NCBI RefSeq assembly: GCF_014698035.1
Contig: NZ_JACJSF010000009.1
Span: forward strand, 62,001-126,000
Length of the DNA: 64,000 nt
Origin: Desmonostoc muscorum FACHB-395
GTDB lineage: Bacteria; Cyanobacteriota; Cyanobacteriia; Cyanobacteriales; Nostocaceae
Direction of reading: 5' to 3'
Shown here: piece by piece, positions 53,279-62,320 of the stretch
Numbering within the stretch: the first letter of the stretch is position 1
Layout: each line of letters starts with the position of its first letter
Notes under the pieces: model-generated
Seen by the model: the letters and a program-made list of their open reading frames with translations, nothing else
The model's database searches: none
Told to the model about the DNA's origin: nothing
Position numbers and translations under genes: made by a program

Positions 53279-54865
53279 ATGGATGCTAGGGCACTTTGGC
53301 AACGATACCAAAACTGGTTATATTTCCACGAGGGATTGGGACTGTACTTAGACATAAGTCGAATGCGGTTCGATGATGCCTTTGTGGAATCGTTGCAGCC
53401 GAAGTTTGACAAGGCGTTTGCGGATATGGCTGAACTGGAGAAGGGCGCGATCGCAAATCCCGACGAGAACCGCATGGTTGGACACTACTGGCTGCGAAAT
53501 CCTGATTTAGCGCCAACTCCAGAACTTACACAAGAAATAGTCCAAACCCTAGAACAAATCGAAGCTTTTGCGGAAAAAGTCCAAACAGGTGCTATTCATC
53601 CTCCCAGAGCAAGCCGCTTCACGGATATTATCTCCATTGGCATTGGTGGTTCCGCACTCGGACCCCAATTCGTCGCAGAAGCTCTTGCTCCTGATTTCCC
53701 ACCTCTGAAACTTCACTTTATCGATAACAACGATCCGGCAGGTATCGATCGCGTTATCAATCATCTACGAAATAGCCTCGCCAGCACTTTGGTATTGGTA
53801 ATCTCCAAATCTGGAGGAACACCGGAACCACGCAACGGCATGATTGAGGTTAAAAAAGCTTACGCCGGACATAATTTGGAATTTGCTCAATATGCGGTAG
53901 CAATTACCAGCGTTGACAGCAACCTCGATAAACTAGCCAAAGATGAAGGTTGGCTGGCCAGATTTCCCATGTATGACTGGGTGGGAGGACGTACATCAGA
54001 AATGTCTGCTGTGGGGCTAGTACCAGCCGCATTACAGGGCATTGATGTTCGCGCCATCCTAGATGGTGCAAAAGAAATGGATGACGCTACCCGCGTCCCA
54101 GATGTGAAAAATAACCCAGCAGCCTTGCTAGCTTTGTCTTGGTACTTTGCTGGTAATGGAAAGGGCGAAAAAGATATGGTTGTCTTACCTTACAAAGACA
54201 GCTTATTTTTATTCAGTCGCTATTTGCAACAGCTGGTGATGGAATCTTTGGGCAAGGAAAAAGACTTAGACGGTAATGTTGTCCATCAAGGCATCGCCGT
54301 TTATGGCAATAAAGGCTCAACAGATCAACACGCTTACGTCCAGCAGTTGCGTGAGGGTGTAGCGAATTTCTTTGCTACCTTCGTTGAAGTGTTGGAAGAT
54401 CGTCAGGGCCCATCTACTGAAATAGATCCGGGAGTTACATCAGGCGATTATCTTTCCGGTTTTCTCCAAGGAACCCGACAAGCGCTTTATGAAAATCACC
54501 GCGATTCAATTACAGTTACCATTCCCCAAGTTAACCCCCGAACTGTAGGGGCATTAATAGCTTTGTATGAACGTGCTGTTGGTTTATACGCTAGCTTGGT
54601 TAACGTCAACGCCTACCATCAGCCAGGGGTAGAAGCTGGCAAAAAAGCTGCTGCCTCCATTCTCGATTTGCAAACACGAGTGGTAGCAGTCCTACAAAAA
54701 GAAAAAACTCCCATTTCTCTTGACGAACTCGCCGAGAAAGCTGGCGCATCAGACCAAGTTGAGGCAATTTACAAGATTTTGCGTCATATCCATGCCAATC
54801 AGCGAGGTGTGGTTTTGCAAGGTGATCTTCAGAAACCCGGCAGTTTAACCGTTTCTGCTAGCTGA
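53279..54865 (+). CDS. pgi: Glucose-6-phosphate isomerase
   Basis: Interconverts glucose-6-phosphate and fructose-6-phosphate in glycolysis, glycogen metabolism and the oxidative pentose phosphate route. The 528-residue protein has the sugar isomerase domains with [64 protein letters not shown] and the late [14 protein letters not shown] motif. The ATG start follows a short A/T spacer. Two hairpins follow the gene. Confidence 0.96.
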
Positions 54866-55122: not shown

Positions 55123-55785
55123 TTACGAATTAATACTTACCAAAAGGCGTTGATTAAAATAGCTCTTGGGTAGAAAACAGCGATCGAGTAAAAAAGGATT
55201 ATTGGTATCTCCAAATAATATGTTACCCGGCTTCTCTCGATGACAGAATGGTGGCACAATTCCCCAATCTTCTGCTAGCCAAATCCAGTACCCTATGTCA
55301 ATTCTGCCGTAGTTTGAACCTGTGAGAATCTCCCCAACACTGTTGTTGATAGATACTATTTCTGCCGATGATTTGATTTCAATTAACAGCCAAGCTAACT
55401 CTTCTACAGAAAAGAAATAGCCATTATCAGCAGCTATGTTGACAAACTGCTGCGGATTTTTCGCAATGAGCAATTCTTCTTTGAGAGATGGCGTTTTTTG
55501 TGCAAAATCAAAAAGATCCCAAATTTGTCTTCTTGTAATTAGAAACCACGCAAGTTCTTCTGCCGTCAAATTATGACCATTGTCTTTTGCTAACTTAAGA
55601 AATGGCTCAAGGTTATCGGTTTCTGCTAGTTGACTTTTCAATTGGAATGTTTGCTCTACTAACGACAAAAAATCAATAACCTTTTGCCATGTAACTTTGT
55701 CATAGCTTTTGTTAAATTTTATTTTTTCTTGCCAATAAATGTATTTAGCTTCTTTAAGAAAGAAATTCCAAATTTGATAATACAT
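55123..55785 (-). CDS. Tandem Nif11-type domain protein
   Basis: The 220-residue protein has two copies of the Nif11/nitrile-hydratase-leader pattern. Residues about 36-83 run VIDFLSLVEQ, then FLKLAKDNGHNLTAEELAWF. Residues about 88-135 run IWDLFDFAQKT, then FVNIAADNGYFFSVEELAWLL. A C-terminal region of about 70 residues with aromatic residues and two cysteines (FCHREKPG and DRCFLP) follows. Single Nif11 domains often serve as RiPP leader peptides; doubled domains with a long tail are unusual. No modification enzyme is adjacent. The start has an AGGTGAG-type site upstream. Confidence 0.6.
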   Translation of the reverse strand: MYYQIWNFFLKEAKYIYWQEKIKFNKSYDKVTWQKVIDFLSLVEQTFQLKSQLAETDNLEPFLKLAKDNGHNLTAEELAWFLITRRQIWDLFDFAQKTPSLKEELLIAKNPQQFVNIAADNGYFFSVEELAWLLIEIKSSAEIVSINNSVGEILTGSNYGRIDIGYWIWLAEDWGIVPPFCHREKPGNILFGDTNNPFLLDRCFLPKSYFNQRLLVSINS

Positions 55786-56087: not shown

Positions 56088-56206
56088 GCACTTCAGTACT
56101 TTTAAACGAACCGCAAAGGGCGCAAAGAGCGCGAAGGTAAGAAAAGAGATATATTTTGCTATTTTTAGTTAATAGATAAATTGCGGAGGAAGTAAAAGCG
56201 ATCGCT
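56088..56206. repeat. 119-bp direct repeat, outer copy (parDE left flank)
   Basis: This copy, from GCACTTCAGT to AGCGATCGCT, matches 56925-57043 at most positions and has the same length. On the minus strand it contains a decayed copy of the nuclease gene's last codons (SDRFYFLRNLSIN, stop). It precedes parD. Confidence 0.8.
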
Positions 56207-56275
56207 ATTCAATTAATCTCACTTTAAATGTTGTTAAAATAAGCTTAAAGCTGTCAATAAACTGGAATATCAATA

Positions 56276-56542
56276 ATGAATATCCAAATTAAACCTGAAC
56301 TAGAGCAAATTATCCAAGCGCAAATTGCTACAGGTAGATATGCAAATCCTGAAGAAGTTATTAGTAAAGCATTGAAGTTGCTATTAGAGTGGGAAAAAGG
56401 TTATCAGCAATGGGTGGAAGAAACACGCGAAAAAGTTGAAGTTGCTATTGAGCAACTGGATAGAGGGGAAGGTATTGAAGGAGAAGTTGTAGTTGAACAA
56501 TTGCGAGATAAACTGCGTAAAGCTAGAGAATTACAAGAATGA
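56276..56542 (+). CDS. parD: ParD-like antitoxin
   Basis: The 88-residue protein has an N-terminal ribbon-helix-helix pattern (MNIQIKPELEQIIQAQIATGRY, then EEVISKALKLLLEWEK), as in ParD/CopG antitoxins that bind DNA and a partner toxin. The C-terminal half is helical and charged, suitable for wrapping the toxin. It overlaps the toxin gene by four bases (ATGA), so the two are translationally coupled. It is expected to repress its own promoter. Confidence 0.88.
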   Translation: MNIQIKPELEQIIQAQIATGRYANPEEVISKALKLLLEWEKGYQQWVEETREKVEVAIEQLDRGEGIEGEVVVEQLRDKLRKARELQE

Positions 56543-56841
56543 AGCAACATATTATCTCTCCAAAAGCCAGTGAGGATTTATCAGAAATTATTGATTATTT
56601 TGTCAGGATAAATATTGATGCTGGGGAGCATTTTGTTGAGAAGTTTGATAAAAAGTGTAAATATTTAGCTAATTTCCCCAATATGGGACGCAGCTACGGA
56701 AATATTAAAGCTGATTTGCGTGGTGTTCCTTTGGATAATTACATTATTCTTTATCGAATTGTAAATAGTGGAATTGAAATTGTCCGTGTAGTTAGTGGCT
56801 ATCAAAATTTGGAATCTTTATTTATAGAATCAGATGAGTAA
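56539..56841 (+). CDS. parE: ParE-like toxin
   Basis: The 100-residue protein matches the RelE/ParE superfamily: IISPKASEDLSEIIDYFV, then FPNMGRSYGNIKADLRGVPLDNYIILYRIV and IEIVRVVSGYQNLESLF. ParE toxins typically inhibit DNA gyrase. Partner coupling by the ATGA overlap with parD and the position between two direct repeats suggest a mobile or maintenance module. The target has not been shown. Confidence 0.88.
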   Translation: MKQHIISPKASEDLSEIIDYFVRINIDAGEHFVEKFDKKCKYLANFPNMGRSYGNIKADLRGVPLDNYIILYRIVNSGIEIVRVVSGYQNLESLFIESDE

Positions 56842-56924
56842 GTTGATGTTTTAGTTGACTTCCAATTATCTATTGATAAATCACTCAGAAAGTAAAAGCA
56901 ATGTCTAAAGCTGGCTAGGTTTAA

Positions 56925-57043
56925 GCACTTCAGTTTTTTTGACACGAACCGCAGAGGCGCAGAGAGCGCAGAGGGAAGAAGAGATATATATTTTACTATC
57001 TTTAATTAATAGGTAAATCGCGGAGAAAGTAAAAGCGATCGCT
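56925..57043. repeat. 119-bp direct repeat, inner copy (includes 3' end of nuclease gene)
   Basis: The matching copy of 56088-56206. Its right 42 bases are the final codons of the nuclease gene (SDRFYFLRDLPIN, stop). The left part contains the GAACCGCAGAGGCGCAGAG family repeat. It lies 837 bases from the outer copy. Confidence 0.8.
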
Positions 57044-58375
57044 CTTATAATCACTGTCTTTTATTCGCCCTAGATAGCCTGTTAAAGGCGAAGAAAGTTC
57101 AATCAGAATTTCGTGCATTTCTGCTGTTTTTATTGGCTGTGGTGGATGTGAGCCGAAATACGCACCATGTAAAGCTTCAACACCAGCAGATTCTATGCCT
57201 GAATTTTGTAGATAATTTTTGACGAGCTGGATAATGTGCGATCGCAACCTTATAGATTGTTCAACTTTATCAATATAAGTATTAATTTTATCTTCAGCTA
57301 AACCAAAAGGAGCTTGTTGCAAACACTCTTTTAGTTCTAATAAGTTGATAGAATTTTTGTAATGTGCTTGCAGTTCAACTAGTTTTTGTAATGTTTCGGG
57401 GCTAATAACATTCATTTGATTTTCGGTTGCTGTTCTCAGAGCGTAAAAATTTAGTTCTCCAGCCGCTACAATTAATTTAATTGAATTTTCATACTGAACT
57501 TTACGAAGATGGTTCATGCCTATTTTTAGTAACTGTGCAGGTGTAGCATCAGTAACTTTCTCAGTTTTAGTTGCTTTGCACTCTCCTACTATTGGATAAG
57601 GTTGTTCAGCGTAAAAATCCATACCTCCCGCGCCACCAGTTGCATCTGGATTCAAGCCTGAACCTGTAAAGCCTAATTTTAGTAATCCTCTACGAACTAA
57701 TTTTTCAAATGTATGTCCGTCGCTAGAGTTTCCAACTTTAGCAATTTTATAAATCCAAGGTAAGTCTAAATCTAATGAATTGGTTGGTTTATCGCTACTC
57801 CAACCTAAAAATAATTTGATATCGTCGTCTAATTGTTTAGCTGCTGGTTGGCTAATGGCTAGGGATGCGATCGCACTCTGCAATTCTTCCAATTCAGGAT
57901 TTAGCGGGGGTTCTAGCTTTTCTAATTGGCGTTTGCGTTGGGCGAAGGTGCGATCGTTTAATACTGGCTTTTCTTCAGAAACCGTTAGAGAATTAGGTAA
58001 ACTAACAAATTTCCCTAGCTTTTCCTGAATATTGGGATTAACTGATATTTCTTGTAACTGAGGTAACTGATAGACGCGCAAGTAAGCCAGGAAAAGATAC
58101 TGTTTTTTTCGTAGCATCTCTTTTAATACTTGTGGTGTCCATATTGTTAATTTAGACAAAATCTCTAATGGCTTAGTCTCGTCTAAAATTTGGCAAAGTT
58201 CACATTTAGCCCAAGCTTTAATTGAAACTGACGAATCAGTAGGATAAAGTGCAAATCTTTGCCCAGGACGAATAAACATCCTGGGTAAAGCTGCAATTGT
58301 TCGTCCCTGTATTAAGGCTTCAACATCAGGGACGGGTAGACACAGCGCTGTTGTAATTGAAAACTGCTGATTCAT
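57002..58375 (-). CDS. PUA/ASCH-like domain plus PD-(D/E)XK nuclease-like protein
   Basis: The 457-residue protein has an N-terminal region (about 10-105: GRTIAALPRMFIRPGQRFALYP, KAWAKCELCQILD, LKEMLRKKQYLFLAYLRVYQL) that resembles a PUA/ASCH-type fold. A middle linker precedes a PD-(D/E)XK core: Glu224 in HTFEKLVRRGLLKLG, Asp253 in GGMDFYAE and Glu265-x-Lys267 in IVGECKATK. The first two domains are inferred by pattern. It is the last gene of a three-gene minus-strand operon, 10 bases after the ATPase gene. Modified-DNA recognition and cleavage is a hypothesis. The 3' end is partly duplicated outside parDE. Confidence 0.7.
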   Translation of the reverse strand: MNQQFSITTALCLPVPDVEALIQGRTIAALPRMFIRPGQRFALYPTDSSVSIKAWAKCELCQILDETKPLEILSKLTIWTPQVLKEMLRKKQYLFLAYLRVYQLPQLQEISVNPNIQEKLGKFVSLPNSLTVSEEKPVLNDRTFAQRKRQLEKLEPPLNPELEELQSAIASLAISQPAAKQLDDDIKLFLGWSSDKPTNSLDLDLPWIYKIAKVGNSSDGHTFEKLVRRGLLKLGFTGSGLNPDATGGAGGMDFYAEQPYPIVGECKATKTEKVTDATPAQLLKIGMNHLRKVQYENSIKLIVAAGELNFYALRTATENQMNVISPETLQKLVELQAHYKNSINLLELKECLQQAPFGLAEDKINTYIDKVEQSIRLRSHIIQLVKNYLQNSGIESAGVEALHGAYFGSHPPQPIKTAEMHEILIELSSPLTGYLGRIKDSDYKSDRFYFLRDLPIN

Positions 58376-58385
58376 TTATAAGTAG

Positions 58386-60350
58386 CTATAGATTTCTGTC
58401 GATATTATTAGCAGTAGGAATCGGGTGAGGAATTGAAATAGGAAATTCATTATCAACCAAATTATCATAGCTAGGAGGGCTGATGATTTCTCGAATAAGA
58501 GGATTATTCATTGCTAATTTTCGCTGCTTAATAAAGTCTAAAACCTGTTCTTGAAAATCTAAAATCTCTTTTTCCTCTTTAATTCCATAATTTTCGCTGC
58601 CCCAGTAAACCCATAAAATAGCTAAAAGAGGTTGAATATCTTCGCTTTGTAGAAACACCCACTTTCCCTTTTTTTTATTCAACAGTATTGCTAATCTCTC
58701 TCTAGCTACTATTGCAACTGGACTAATAACGTTTGTGCGAACTAAGCAACCACGAGTTAACTTAAATGTTTCGTAATCAATCAATCTTTTCAATGCAGTG
58801 CCTACATTTGCACCGTCTTGCTGAACTACATCTACTCCAATCCTTACTTTCCTATTATTGGCAATATTTTTACCGATAATTTTGAAATCCATAAAGCCAT
58901 TGTTTGCTGCGCTAGGTTCTACTTCTTCAAGTAATTCAATCTTGACTCCCTCTACAGTTTCTCCAATTAAGCTGTAAATAGAAAGACGAAGAGCGTTGGA
59001 AATTGCTACCTCATCTTCTAATAGTTCATCAATAACTTTATTTACGTCTGCTAAACTTTTCTGGAAGTATGTTTCACAAATAGAGACATTAACTGATTGG
59101 TTTTCATTGTAATCAGTATTATCTTTGATTTGATTATTATCAATAAAATCTTGATTTCTATCGGTTATATAATCAATATGTTCTATTGGTGAGAAATTAT
59201 CTGCACACCACTTTAAAACTGACCTAACAGTAGGTTTTTGTTTACCCTGCTGCCTAAGCTTATTTTCATCAAATGGGTAGAGAAAATGAGGAGGAATTTG
59301 TTGATTTTCTTGATAAAATTCTTGTAGCCATCCTTTAACAAGAGCAATAATATCATCAGAATTGAGATATTTTAACTCAATTGGTTGTCTATCAGCTTGT
59401 TCACTTACTAATCTATCAATGACTGCCTCAGCTTGTGGCAAAAGTCTGATTTGCTCATTCCAAGTTTCAGGATACATAGCCGACAGGAAAACACCTCTTT
59501 TGAGATTGTTATATAGATCCTTAACTAAGCTTGCAATAACTTGTGCTGTTGTCAAACCATTTTCTGCAACGTCTGCATTATCTAATTCATCAAAGCAAAG
59601 TACTGGAATTTTATAATAGCTAGTGATATCTAGAATCTGCCGAATATTACGTAATGATTCTATCTCTCTATCCTCTTTTTTGGGATTTGGCAAACCCATT
59701 GCTTCAGCTTCTTCCTTTGTTAGTTCTAAACCAGATAGCCAGTGATTTGCATAATTAACATGATCTGGAGAAAGTGTCCACAAAATTGCTTTAACTATGT
59801 AAGGGTTGCTAATTTCAGGCTTTATTAGCAGAACTAGTTTTGTAAATTGTTCAACTAACTTCGTTGAATGTTTATTTAACCAAATTGGATATTGACTAAT
59901 ATACTGTTGTGGTGTGTAGTTCCATTGCTTTGCTTCGTTAATTAAAGCAGCTGCAATTTCTTGCCACTGCATTACTTTTTGACTACCAAATGCTCTGAGG
60001 CTAGAGGCAACACTTTGTAAAAATTCATATTTGATTTGGTTTAAGTTATCATACTTACTCATGTAAATAAATAAGCTATTATTTTCTGCCTGTAAATGAT
60101 GGCGAATTCGACTAATAATATGGCTTTTACCTAGACCTCTTTCCGCTACAATAGTTATGCCTACAGTTGTATGCTGCCCTTTTTGTATTTTGTCAAGTGC
60201 ATCAAATACTGCATTAGAGGCATGAGCATTAATTGAGGGTGCATCAGGAAAACTTTTTCCCCATATTTGCTGCGGTTTAACAACAAGATGCCCTGCAAAT
60301 GGGTTTTGTTTCTGAATTAATTCATCGATGGTAGATGTGCTATTAATCAT
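58386..60350 (-). CDS. P-loop ATPase of a putative defence-type operon
   Basis: The 654-residue protein begins with a QNPFAG motif and a Walker A at about residues 69-76 (VAERGLGKSHII), with Walker B at about 248-257 (IPVLCFDELDNAD). The pattern is that of AAA/Cdc6-like archaeal-type ATPases as in BREX (BrxC/BrxD) and related defence systems. The C-terminal third (GFMDFKIIGKN, VRIGVDVVQQDG, CLVRTNVISPVAIV) may form a further domain of uncertain fold. It lies 38 bases after the HTH gene and 10 before the nuclease gene. No close family is recognised. Confidence 0.75.
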   Translation of the reverse strand: MINSTSTIDELIQKQNPFAGHLVVKPQQIWGKSFPDAPSINAHASNAVFDALDKIQKGQHTTVGITIVAERGLGKSHIISRIRHHLQAENNSLFIYMSKYDNLNQIKYEFLQSVASSLRAFGSQKVMQWQEIAAALINEAKQWNYTPQQYISQYPIWLNKHSTKLVEQFTKLVLLIKPEISNPYIVKAILWTLSPDHVNYANHWLSGLELTKEEAEAMGLPNPKKEDREIESLRNIRQILDITSYYKIPVLCFDELDNADVAENGLTTAQVIASLVKDLYNNLKRGVFLSAMYPETWNEQIRLLPQAEAVIDRLVSEQADRQPIELKYLNSDDIIALVKGWLQEFYQENQQIPPHFLYPFDENKLRQQGKQKPTVRSVLKWCADNFSPIEHIDYITDRNQDFIDNNQIKDNTDYNENQSVNVSICETYFQKSLADVNKVIDELLEDEVAISNALRLSIYSLIGETVEGVKIELLEEVEPSAANNGFMDFKIIGKNIANNRKVRIGVDVVQQDGANVGTALKRLIDYETFKLTRGCLVRTNVISPVAIVARERLAILLNKKKGKWVFLQSEDIQPLLAILWVYWGSENYGIKEEKEILDFQEQVLDFIKQRKLAMNNPLIREIISPPSYDNLVDNEFPISIPHPIPTANNIDRNL

Positions 60351-60388
60351 AATAGTGTGAGGTTTATGGGTAAAGAGTCTAAGAAAGT

Positions 60389-61066
60389 TTAAGGTTTCAG
60401 ACGTTTTGAGTAGCAGCGTAATCCATTGAGTTCTGTAGTAATAGAATCTTCTATTTTGTCGCTTGCATTATCTTCTACAGTTCCACCTTGTAGTTGCAAA
60501 ATGTCGTCGGCTTGCATTTCCAGCAGCCAATCATTAAACTCTGTACGACTCACACGATCGCCAATTCCTCTTCTAATGCGATAAATTGGCACCAGATTAT
60601 TAAAGTTGTATTCATAGTTCAGCTTGTCGTAGATTTCCAACGCCACTGACTTAAATTCGTCGTAAGATGCGATTCCTTCGGAAATCTTCGTTAACGCATC
60701 CTTTCCATTAACTGGTACATCTGCACTAACTACTGCAACATCAATCTGACTAATCCACTTCACCAGCGCATTCGCCGCCCAAGTACCGACAATCGTCCCT
60801 TCAAATTTAAAATCGCCACTTCTCAAACCCTCACCCAATACCTCTAAACCCTTGGGAGATGTCAGAGAATATCCCTTTTTGGAAATTGCGATCGCACCCT
60901 GATTCTGCAATTCTTCAAATGAACCCTGATAATCTGCTACCTTCTGACTTTTAGATACAATTCGCTTGCTAAGTTGACCCTTTTTAACTTCCTGCTGCGT
61001 TCCTCCCAAATCCCACAAAGCCAAAAGGAGACGAGTGCTAGTTTGGGCTGTATTTTTTGATGTCAT
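60389..61066 (-). CDS. Winged-helix-like first gene of the putative defence-type operon
   Basis: The 225-residue protein starts at the ATG at 61066 (MTSKNTAQTSTRLLLALWDL); an upstream TTG at 61087 would add seven residues. Residues about 10-80 follow a winged-helix pattern (LLLALWDLGGTQQEV, FEELQNQGAIAISKKGYSLTSPKGLEVL). The remainder has an acidic C-terminal region with no known motif. Its first-gene position suggests an autoregulator or a DNA-binding component. I do not recognise the family. Confidence 0.65.
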   Translation of the reverse strand: MTSKNTAQTSTRLLLALWDLGGTQQEVKKGQLSKRIVSKSQKVADYQGSFEELQNQGAIAISKKGYSLTSPKGLEVLGEGLRSGDFKFEGTIVGTWAANALVKWISQIDVAVVSADVPVNGKDALTKISEGIASYDEFKSVALEIYDKLNYEYNFNNLVPIYRIRRGIGDRVSRTEFNDWLLEMQADDILQLQGGTVEDNASDKIEDSITTELNGLRCYSKRLKP

Positions 61067-61987: not shown

Positions 61988-62320
61988 ATGGTAAATGAAT
62001 TTTTCCGAAAGGCGAAAGATTTACTCTTGGGATCGAACAGCGATCAAGCTGATCAAAATGCTGAATTCCGCGATCGCAATGTCCGCCCAGCCAGCGAAGA
62101 CCCCTACGGCGATCCCGCAGACCCAGCGTCTTACGGCAACGTTATTCCAGCCAGTCAAGACCCCTACGGCGACCCCGCAGATATATCGTCTTACGGCAAC
62201 GTTCGCCCAGCTAGTGAAGATCCTTACGGCGACCCCGCAGACACAGGGGAGTTTGGTGATGTCCGCCCAGCTAGCGAAGACCCCTACGGCGACCCCGCAG
62301 ATGAGGATTACCGTCGTTAA
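61988..62320 (+). CDS. Protein made of four exact-length 20-residue repeats
   Basis: After a 31-residue lead (MVNEFFRKAKDLLLGSNSDQ), four 60-bp units at 62081-62320 encode RPASEDPYGDPADPASYGN-type repeats, the last ending at the stop codon. The units are near-identical in DNA (CCCTACGGCGA, CCCGCAGA), so they arose by tandem duplication. The acidic, Pro/Gly/Tyr-rich repeat resembles a disordered or adhesion-like chain. No family is recognised and the role is unknown. Confidence 0.75.
   Translation: MVNEFFRKAKDLLLGSNSDQADQNAEFRDRNVRPASEDPYGDPADPASYGNVIPASQDPYGDPADISSYGNVRPASEDPYGDPADTGEFGDVRPASEDPYGDPADEDYRR

Follow-up and report, generated by a model that had tools for sequence, protein, structure and literature searches.

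A likely restriction-like gene trio of Desmonostoc muscorum and toxin–antitoxin cassettes bounded by copies of its nuclease gene 3′ end

Within a 64,000-nucleotide stretch of Desmonostoc muscorum FACHB-395 (contig NZ_JACJSF010000009.1, positions 62,001 to 126,000; termed the window in the following), an operon of three genes encodes a putative helix-turn-helix (HTH) protein, an ATPase and a nuclease. The last ~41–97 bp of the nuclease gene recur downstream, where the copies bound cassettes of ~0.6–0.9 kb that mostly carry toxin–antitoxin (TA) pairs. The trio is likely a restriction-like defence system; a role in phage protection is suggested by its domain content, by the shuffling of its alleles and by the slot that it shares with known defence genes. 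With somewhat better than even confidence we read it as a resident, allele-shuffling system of this type, in which the tail of the nuclease gene acts as a recombination seam.

Anatomy and relatives of the trio

All three genes lie on the minus strand, separated by gaps of 38 and 10 bases: gene 1 (60389..61066, 225 aa, ATG start at 61066), the ATPase gene (gene 2, 58386..60350, 654 aa) and the nuclease gene (gene 3, 57002..58375, 457 aa). This operon, proposed earlier in a sequence-only reading of the window, is borne out by the gene calls. The nuclease is composed of a DUF1802 domain (ASCH/PUA-like), a catalytic PD-(D/E)XK domain (residues 199–375; 57251..57781, minus strand), a variable C-terminal domain (CTD) and a conserved tail. 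Pfam DUF1802 is matched with 116 bits (cut-off 25) and Mrr_cat below threshold; the Pfam note on DUF1802 presumably names Mrr_cat already. The core, assigned to PD-(D/E)XK in the sequence-only reading, is indeed modelled with this fold, with a strong match from a VIA-align run over Foldseek's candidates. The residues E224, D253, E265 and K267 are retained in 124–125 of 126 relatives, which predicts an intact active site. The N-terminal domain is modelled as ASCH/PUA-like, and Foldseek alone places ASCH chains on all of the ranks 1–8 and MspJI at E 0.016. According to the model, the nuclease thus contains a reader domain of the PUA superfamily, as looked for in modification-dependent restriction.

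Gene 2 encodes an AAA ATPase (~residues 45–390) followed by a C-terminal restriction-endonuclease-like domain (~430–628) that lacks conserved catalytic acids; the AAA models of Pfam remain sub-threshold. Gene 1 belongs to a family without Pfam name and gave no Pfam match up to E=1, its HTH label being putative. Searches of PDB sequences returned nothing useful, and no Rfam element was found in the region at gathering score. In-frame stops interrupt some of the trio genes as assembled, for example the nuclease of genome G226 (2 TGA) and the ATPase of G038, possibly due to decay or assembly errors.

The combination of a reader–nuclease fusion and an AAA ATPase agrees with modification-dependent restriction, and we infer such a dependence for the predicted nuclease. 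A passage of PMC7897488 describes many modification-dependent enzymes as reader–nuclease fusions. The nearest known kind are Type IV-like modification-dependent enzymes with a reader of the PUA superfamily, such as VcaM4I (EVE–HNH) and MspJI (PD-(D/E)XK). In contrast to these, the N-terminal domain of the trio nuclease is closest to ASCH and not to EVE, an AAA ATPase and a third gene are added, and the alleles shuffle their domains. With McrBC the trio shares an NTPase gene, a PD-(D/E)XK nuclease gene and a PUA-like reader within the system. However, the reader is located on the nuclease and not on the motor, a PADLOC match is absent, and the MNTxDR signature of McrB is missing, the NTxD motif being absent from the window ATPase. 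A weak relative of the ATPase domain is NCBIfam DS41_1_antiphage (NF053860; 27.5 bits against a cut-off of 370 bits, E 1.5e-6, residues 54–279), which its name suggests to be DS-41 of DefensePredictor. DS-41 appears among 31 systems in the section of PMC13092281 on phage protection.

A search with the nuclease, in which 7997 candidates were scored and 120 listed, counted 2136 homologues at E<=0.001, and given this number the architecture of the trio is already known in part. The earlier statement that the gene set is not recognised among known systems therefore stands as far as PADLOC families are concerned and has to be relaxed for the architecture; we regard the operon as a new candidate of the ATPase/reader/nuclease kind. 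As a test set beforehand, the trio had to be conserved together elsewhere. Within 7 kb of the nuclease, gene 1 was found in 75 and the ATPase in 77 of 81 nuclease loci (the best 80 of 202 found, and the window). In 242 genomes of the class, gene 1 has matches in 59, the ATPase in 85 (weak paralogues included) and the nuclease in 83 (DUF1802-only and tail-only matches included).

Tail repeat and cassette arrays

In the window, repeat copy 1 (56956..57046, minus strand) comprises the final 45 bp of the nuclease gene and 46 bp beyond. Copy 2 (56119..56209, minus strand) is non-coding and has the same orientation; both are 86% identical over 91 nt, with 837 bp from start to start. Copy 2 closes a cassette with the antitoxin ParD (56276..56542) and the toxin ParE (56539..56841) as cargo, both on the plus strand and above the Pfam cut-offs of ParD_antitoxin and ParE_toxin. 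The sequence-only reading had placed ParDE beside the operon; the adjacency holds, and the module is not a mere neighbour, since it is a cassette delimited by copies of the nuclease gene 3′ end. Just past ParE a degenerate third copy of 51 nt is located (56852..56902, minus strand; 63–71% in family D3), with a counterpart in locus L148 at +138. The closest named relatives of the window are Nostoc, and Nostoc sp. LEGE 12450 (L111) shows the same cassette with ParDE proteins identical to those of the window. In L128 and L113 the cassette is absent at that place, and the flanking Nif11 gene lies 832 and 811 bp closer. At other Nostoc loci, one or two cassettes encode two paired proteins of 120 and ~105 aa; the 120-aa protein appears retropepsin-like by eye and has zero Pfam matches.

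The repeat core of ~31–45 bp, GCGATCGC TTTTACT...GAYTTACC, is common in its short form to Nostoc, Symplocastrum and the genus g40. By eye, the left edge is found at GCGATCGC in most Nostoc-type copies, with L148 and one Symplocastrum copy as exceptions. Scoring of 40 out of 213 candidates in the window's own genome, a 9.43-Mb assembly, yielded 45 listed matches, among which the gene-end part of the repeat occurs only at the trio locus. Of these matches, 42 fall wholly within query bases 87–141, past the gene end, and represent a dispersed CTCTGCG-type repeat, a copy of which makes up the right half of the cassette boundary in Nostoc.

As a control, the last 120 bp of each gene were searched for in the 6 kb downstream at 126 nuclease+ATPase loci out of 167 given, among which four places had been fetched twice. 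End copies were obtained for the nuclease at approximately 31 of 126 loci, for the ATPase at 0/126 and for gene 1 at 1/118. Counted among the 31 are L149 and L151, whose second tail is full-length and probably belongs to a further nuclease gene. L131 and L164 bear tail copies and fell outside the 126, as they were unrecognised as trio loci. Longer second copies of the nuclease 3′ end (77–97% over 99–120 bp, 4–8 kb off) were observed in L139, L140, L144, L149, L151 and L157 and are probably second nuclease genes.

The richest arrays were found in genus g40. The repeat was searched for in 26 of its genomes, with no more than 34 candidates scored per genome. Matches at E<=0.01 were obtained in 25 of them and copies at E<=1e-9 in 24; these strong copies cluster at one locus per genome, or at two in G130 and G243. 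Analysis of 24 loci resulted in 64 bounded cassettes in 23 arrays, with a median length of 682 bp (quartiles 595–718, range 245–1994). The cassettes belong to 23 families, 12 of which are common to at least two arrays and one of which occurs at array positions 1, 2, 3, 4 and 6. Tandem, exchangeable cassettes between repeated sites, as expected of an integron, are thus present. Shared cassettes reach 98.4% DNA identity beside nucleases and ATPases that are only 37% and 35% identical; the arrays of L037 and L044 are near-identical and not independent. A scan of 20 cargo proteins, 3 of them without family, revealed DUF433/DUF5615, DUF2281/PIN, DUF4258 with a partner, Unstab_antitox/PIN_3 and NTP_transf_2/HepT-like proteins, as well as YoeB, MqsA, ParE, a DUF6036 protein and an Asp_protease_2 protein. 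We take DUF433/DUF5615 and DUF4258 to be TA families. Among 86 repeat copies in 26 loci, 72 lie outside the nuclease gene, 25 of them with a stop in the gene frame or with altered length. In L197 (9781–10071, flipped coordinates) an open reading frame judged by eye to encode a PemK/MazF-like toxin continues without change of frame into the tail repeat of the nuclease, representing a toxin–tail fusion.

In outcome the array resembles those of integrons and SCC elements. Similar to integrons and CALINs as treated in a part of PMC8618304, short cassettes, many of them TA, stand in tandem between copies of a short site, beside the gene that bears the first site. In contrast, the trio arrays have neither an intact intI nearby nor an attC-like fold, the first site lies within the nuclease reading frame, and whole defence systems are swapped at the head. 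SCC elements target the 3′ end of rlmH; they share with the cassettes the insertion at a gene 3′ end, an intact gene afterwards and the possibility of stacking. They differ in that the trio cassettes measure ~0.7 kb, that no recombinase genes were seen in them and that the target is a defence-like nuclease.

Reassortment of alleles and exchange of heads at one locus

In many Nostoc strains the locus follows the order MDH, two small genes, trio, variable segment, Nif11 and phosphoglucose isomerase (PGI). In 18 strains with PGI at least 90% identical to that of the window, the catalytic domain, a freely swapped module, shows identities of 0.91–0.99 in 8, 0.68 in 1 and 0.41–0.46 in 9, and the N-terminal part of the ATPase 0.43–0.82. 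Correlations were determined for 33 loci, with PGI identity partialled out and 1000 permutations. Values of r=0.76 for gene 1 and ATPase, 0.78 for ATPase and DUF1802 and 0.80 for gene 1 and DUF1802 were reached by 0/1000 permutations. The catalytic domain gave −0.08 with the ATPase N-part and −0.02 with both DUF1802 and gene 1. Since the former three co-vary and the catalytic domain is independent of them, strains combine a sensor block and a cutter block in different ways at a single locus. A weak tie links the catalytic domain to the following CTD (r 0.32, 1/1000 permutations), and the final 32 nuclease residues track PGI (r=0.69).

In g40 arrays without the trio, other genes head the array and end just ahead of the first repeat. 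We found HsdM and HsdS of a Type I restriction–modification (R-M) system in L037 and L194 (the latter annotated from similarity to L037), a BsuBI/PstI-type R-M fusion (Type II) in L038, LmuA/LmuB (Lamassu-like) in L047, an AAA_21/AriA-like protein in L044 and a GajB-like UvrD helicase in L042. The opposite strand upstream of the L193 array encodes an AAA_15 protein and its DUF3226 partner. Altogether, 10 of 23 arrays start without the trio on the stretch examined; the head is cut off or ambiguous in L109, L195 and L200, likewise in L191 and L192, and L047 comes from a genome (G130) that possesses a trio at another place. In Nostocaceae G097 (L035) a BnzB-like protein stands between a gene-1 fragment and the nuclease tail, with a trio also elsewhere in the genome. 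Comparison of L037 and L044 locates one such swap: the heads differ, 3.4 kb downstream are 99.3% identical and two blocks of the upstream flank 98.6–99.6%. Going into the repeat, the similarity climbs at the left edge and is almost complete once GCGATCGC is reached, which puts the breakpoint of this head swap at the repeat. Recombination within the tail repeat offers the simplest account of how both cassettes and heads are exchanged.

Beside other defence genes, stand-alone relatives of the N-terminal half of gene 1 (114–136 aa) were observed in L042 (6331–6675), L043, L044 and L087 (start); they are perhaps a shared regulator of the defence slot.

Proposed mechanism and competing explanations

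In the reading that we favour, the DUF1802 ASCH/PUA-like domain probably recognises nucleic acid that is modified or marked in some other way and would form sensor and motor together with the AAA ATPase, the PD-(D/E)XK domain would cleave marked foreign DNA, and gene 1 may be a DNA-binding regulator or adaptor. The trio would reside in a defence-exchange locus whose recombination seam is the nuclease 3′ end. Incoming DNA that bears the tail could recombine there, by which defence heads would be swapped on one side and TA cassettes gained or lost on the other, and the nuclease gene would retain or regain its full 3′ end through the exchange. The TA cassettes may stabilise the locus against loss. 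We infer that host homologous recombination performs the exchange, with no dedicated recombinase. The defence assignment of the sequence-only reading is supported by the interchange with known defence genes in one slot and by the domain shuffling.

Several observations weigh against this reading. The trio is core-like and not patchy in the window's genus, with gene 1 in 49 of 52 genomes; of the three genomes without it, one owes this to a contig edge, next to which the nuclease and the ATPase, the latter cut by the contig start, are present. Such near-universal occurrence is unusual for a mobile defence system and counts against the putative role in phage protection. Gene 1 also tracks PGI (r 0.83). 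In PADLOC, nuclease and gene 1 are unmatched, the ATPase reaches E 0.006–0.009 at best, and the trio fits no system model. The N-terminal half of the ATPase is poorly modelled (mean pLDDT 57.8), so that its role relies on the Walker motifs. One chain matched by the ASCH-like domain is by title an ac4C amidohydrolase, and the match leaves binding of modified bases unproved. The extents of the repeat vary by genus, which leaves a single common site unproved. Finally, two closely related arrays show a degraded integrase-like fragment ~2.4 kb past the array (L037:11342–11647 in G219:C88; G185:C1:3423554–3423802), which has 29 bits, below cut-off, in a frame of at most ~109 aa and could be the remnant of a lost recombinase. 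The gene between array and fragment is presumably excinuclease-like.

This fragment is also in line with a possible, though unlikely, alternative, in which the gene 3′ end serves as the att site of a tyrosine or serine site-specific recombinase that is encoded elsewhere and has perhaps been lost. The short core common to Nostoc, Symplocastrum and g40, the left edge of most Nostoc-type copies and the gene end left intact by insertion would agree with this, as would the integron integrase TIGR02249, which exceeds its cut-off in 6 of 15 array genomes. However, the nearest copy on an array contig lies ~100 kb or more away, and 9 of the 15 have zero such integrases over cut-off, two of them with six repeats each. 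Moreover, the edges vary by genus, and an attC-like single-strand fold of the repeat was not found (z −0.40 to +1.14 against shuffles, 8 folds). An integron origin in the present form was rejected, as there is neither an intact integrase near the arrays nor an attC-like fold; a lost integrase is possible. Full-length TIGR02249 integrases (450–476 bits, cut-off 265) are present away from the arrays in G185, G219, G179, G144, G239 and G023, with two each in G185 and G219.

It is rather improbable that the trio has a housekeeping or regulatory function, for example in nucleic-acid repair, with a defence link by genomic proximity only. The near-universal occurrence in the genus and the fixed locus would suit such a role. 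However, known defence genes replace the trio in the same slot of another genus, the alleles of the catalytic domain and the ATPase diverge to ~40% beside a highly conserved PGI, and most sampled cyanobacteria lack the trio, as seen from the 59 of 242 genomes with gene 1.

We are still more doubtful that the trio itself is the recombination machinery, in which nuclease and ATPase would cut and handle the repeat and the gene's own 3′ end would be the primary site, comparable to intI/attI. It would then load and shuffle TA modules and swap defence systems as an integron analogue made of restriction parts, with no tyrosine recombinase. This is opposed by the ten arrays that lack a trio at their start, with the reservations on heads and G130 given above, by the lack of a strand-transfer enzyme, by 95 of 126 trio loci at which the tail repeat was undetected and by a repeat that stays the same beside catalytic domains diverging to ~40% identity.

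Chance or dispersed genomic repeats (HIP1 octamers, the CTCTGCG family) instead of cassette boundaries can account for the right half of the copy in Nostoc and were rejected, with hardly any probability left, for the gene-end core, which is confined to the trio locus among the matches listed, clusters at one or two loci in 24 of 26 g40 genomes at E<=1e-9 and has next to no equivalent at the ends of the other two genes.

As a likely new restriction-like system in which sensor and blade reassort separately at one locus, the trio represents a natural experiment on specificity. Its array of mostly TA modules is anchored in a defence-like gene and bounded by copies of the 3′ end of that gene. Such arrays are undescribed as far as the literature was searched (cassettes, Microcystis, TA, repeats), a result of little weight since most subscription papers and bioRxiv lie outside the coverage; DUF1802 itself came up in 1 paper. 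If the seam is real, it offers a testable answer to the question how defence islands trade parts when a dedicated integrase is lacking, and it supplies ready-made boundaries by which new defence systems can be discovered.

With regard to mobile DNA, searches of plasmid records with the array DNA and the ATPase and of phage records with the nuclease and the array DNA were all empty. In IMG/VR the exact repeat pattern gave nothing, and alignment of the ATPase to 33 pattern stretches gave zero relatives. The fixed right flank of the window consists of the Nif11 protein (55123..55785, minus strand) and PGI (53279–54865). On the left, one neighbour gene, which we take to be agmatine-deiminase-like, is common to 5 trio and 3 non-trio loci and lies upstream of each. 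In Nostocaceae G107 just a 27-aa copy of the tail is left between Nif11 and the next gene, and in Nostocaceae G298, which is without trio, a cassette pair yet persists between PGI and a small gene. A small gene upstream of the trio (61988–62320), characterised by EDPYGDPAD repeats, contains three tandem units of 60 bp at 62076–62302 and is conserved with the locus.
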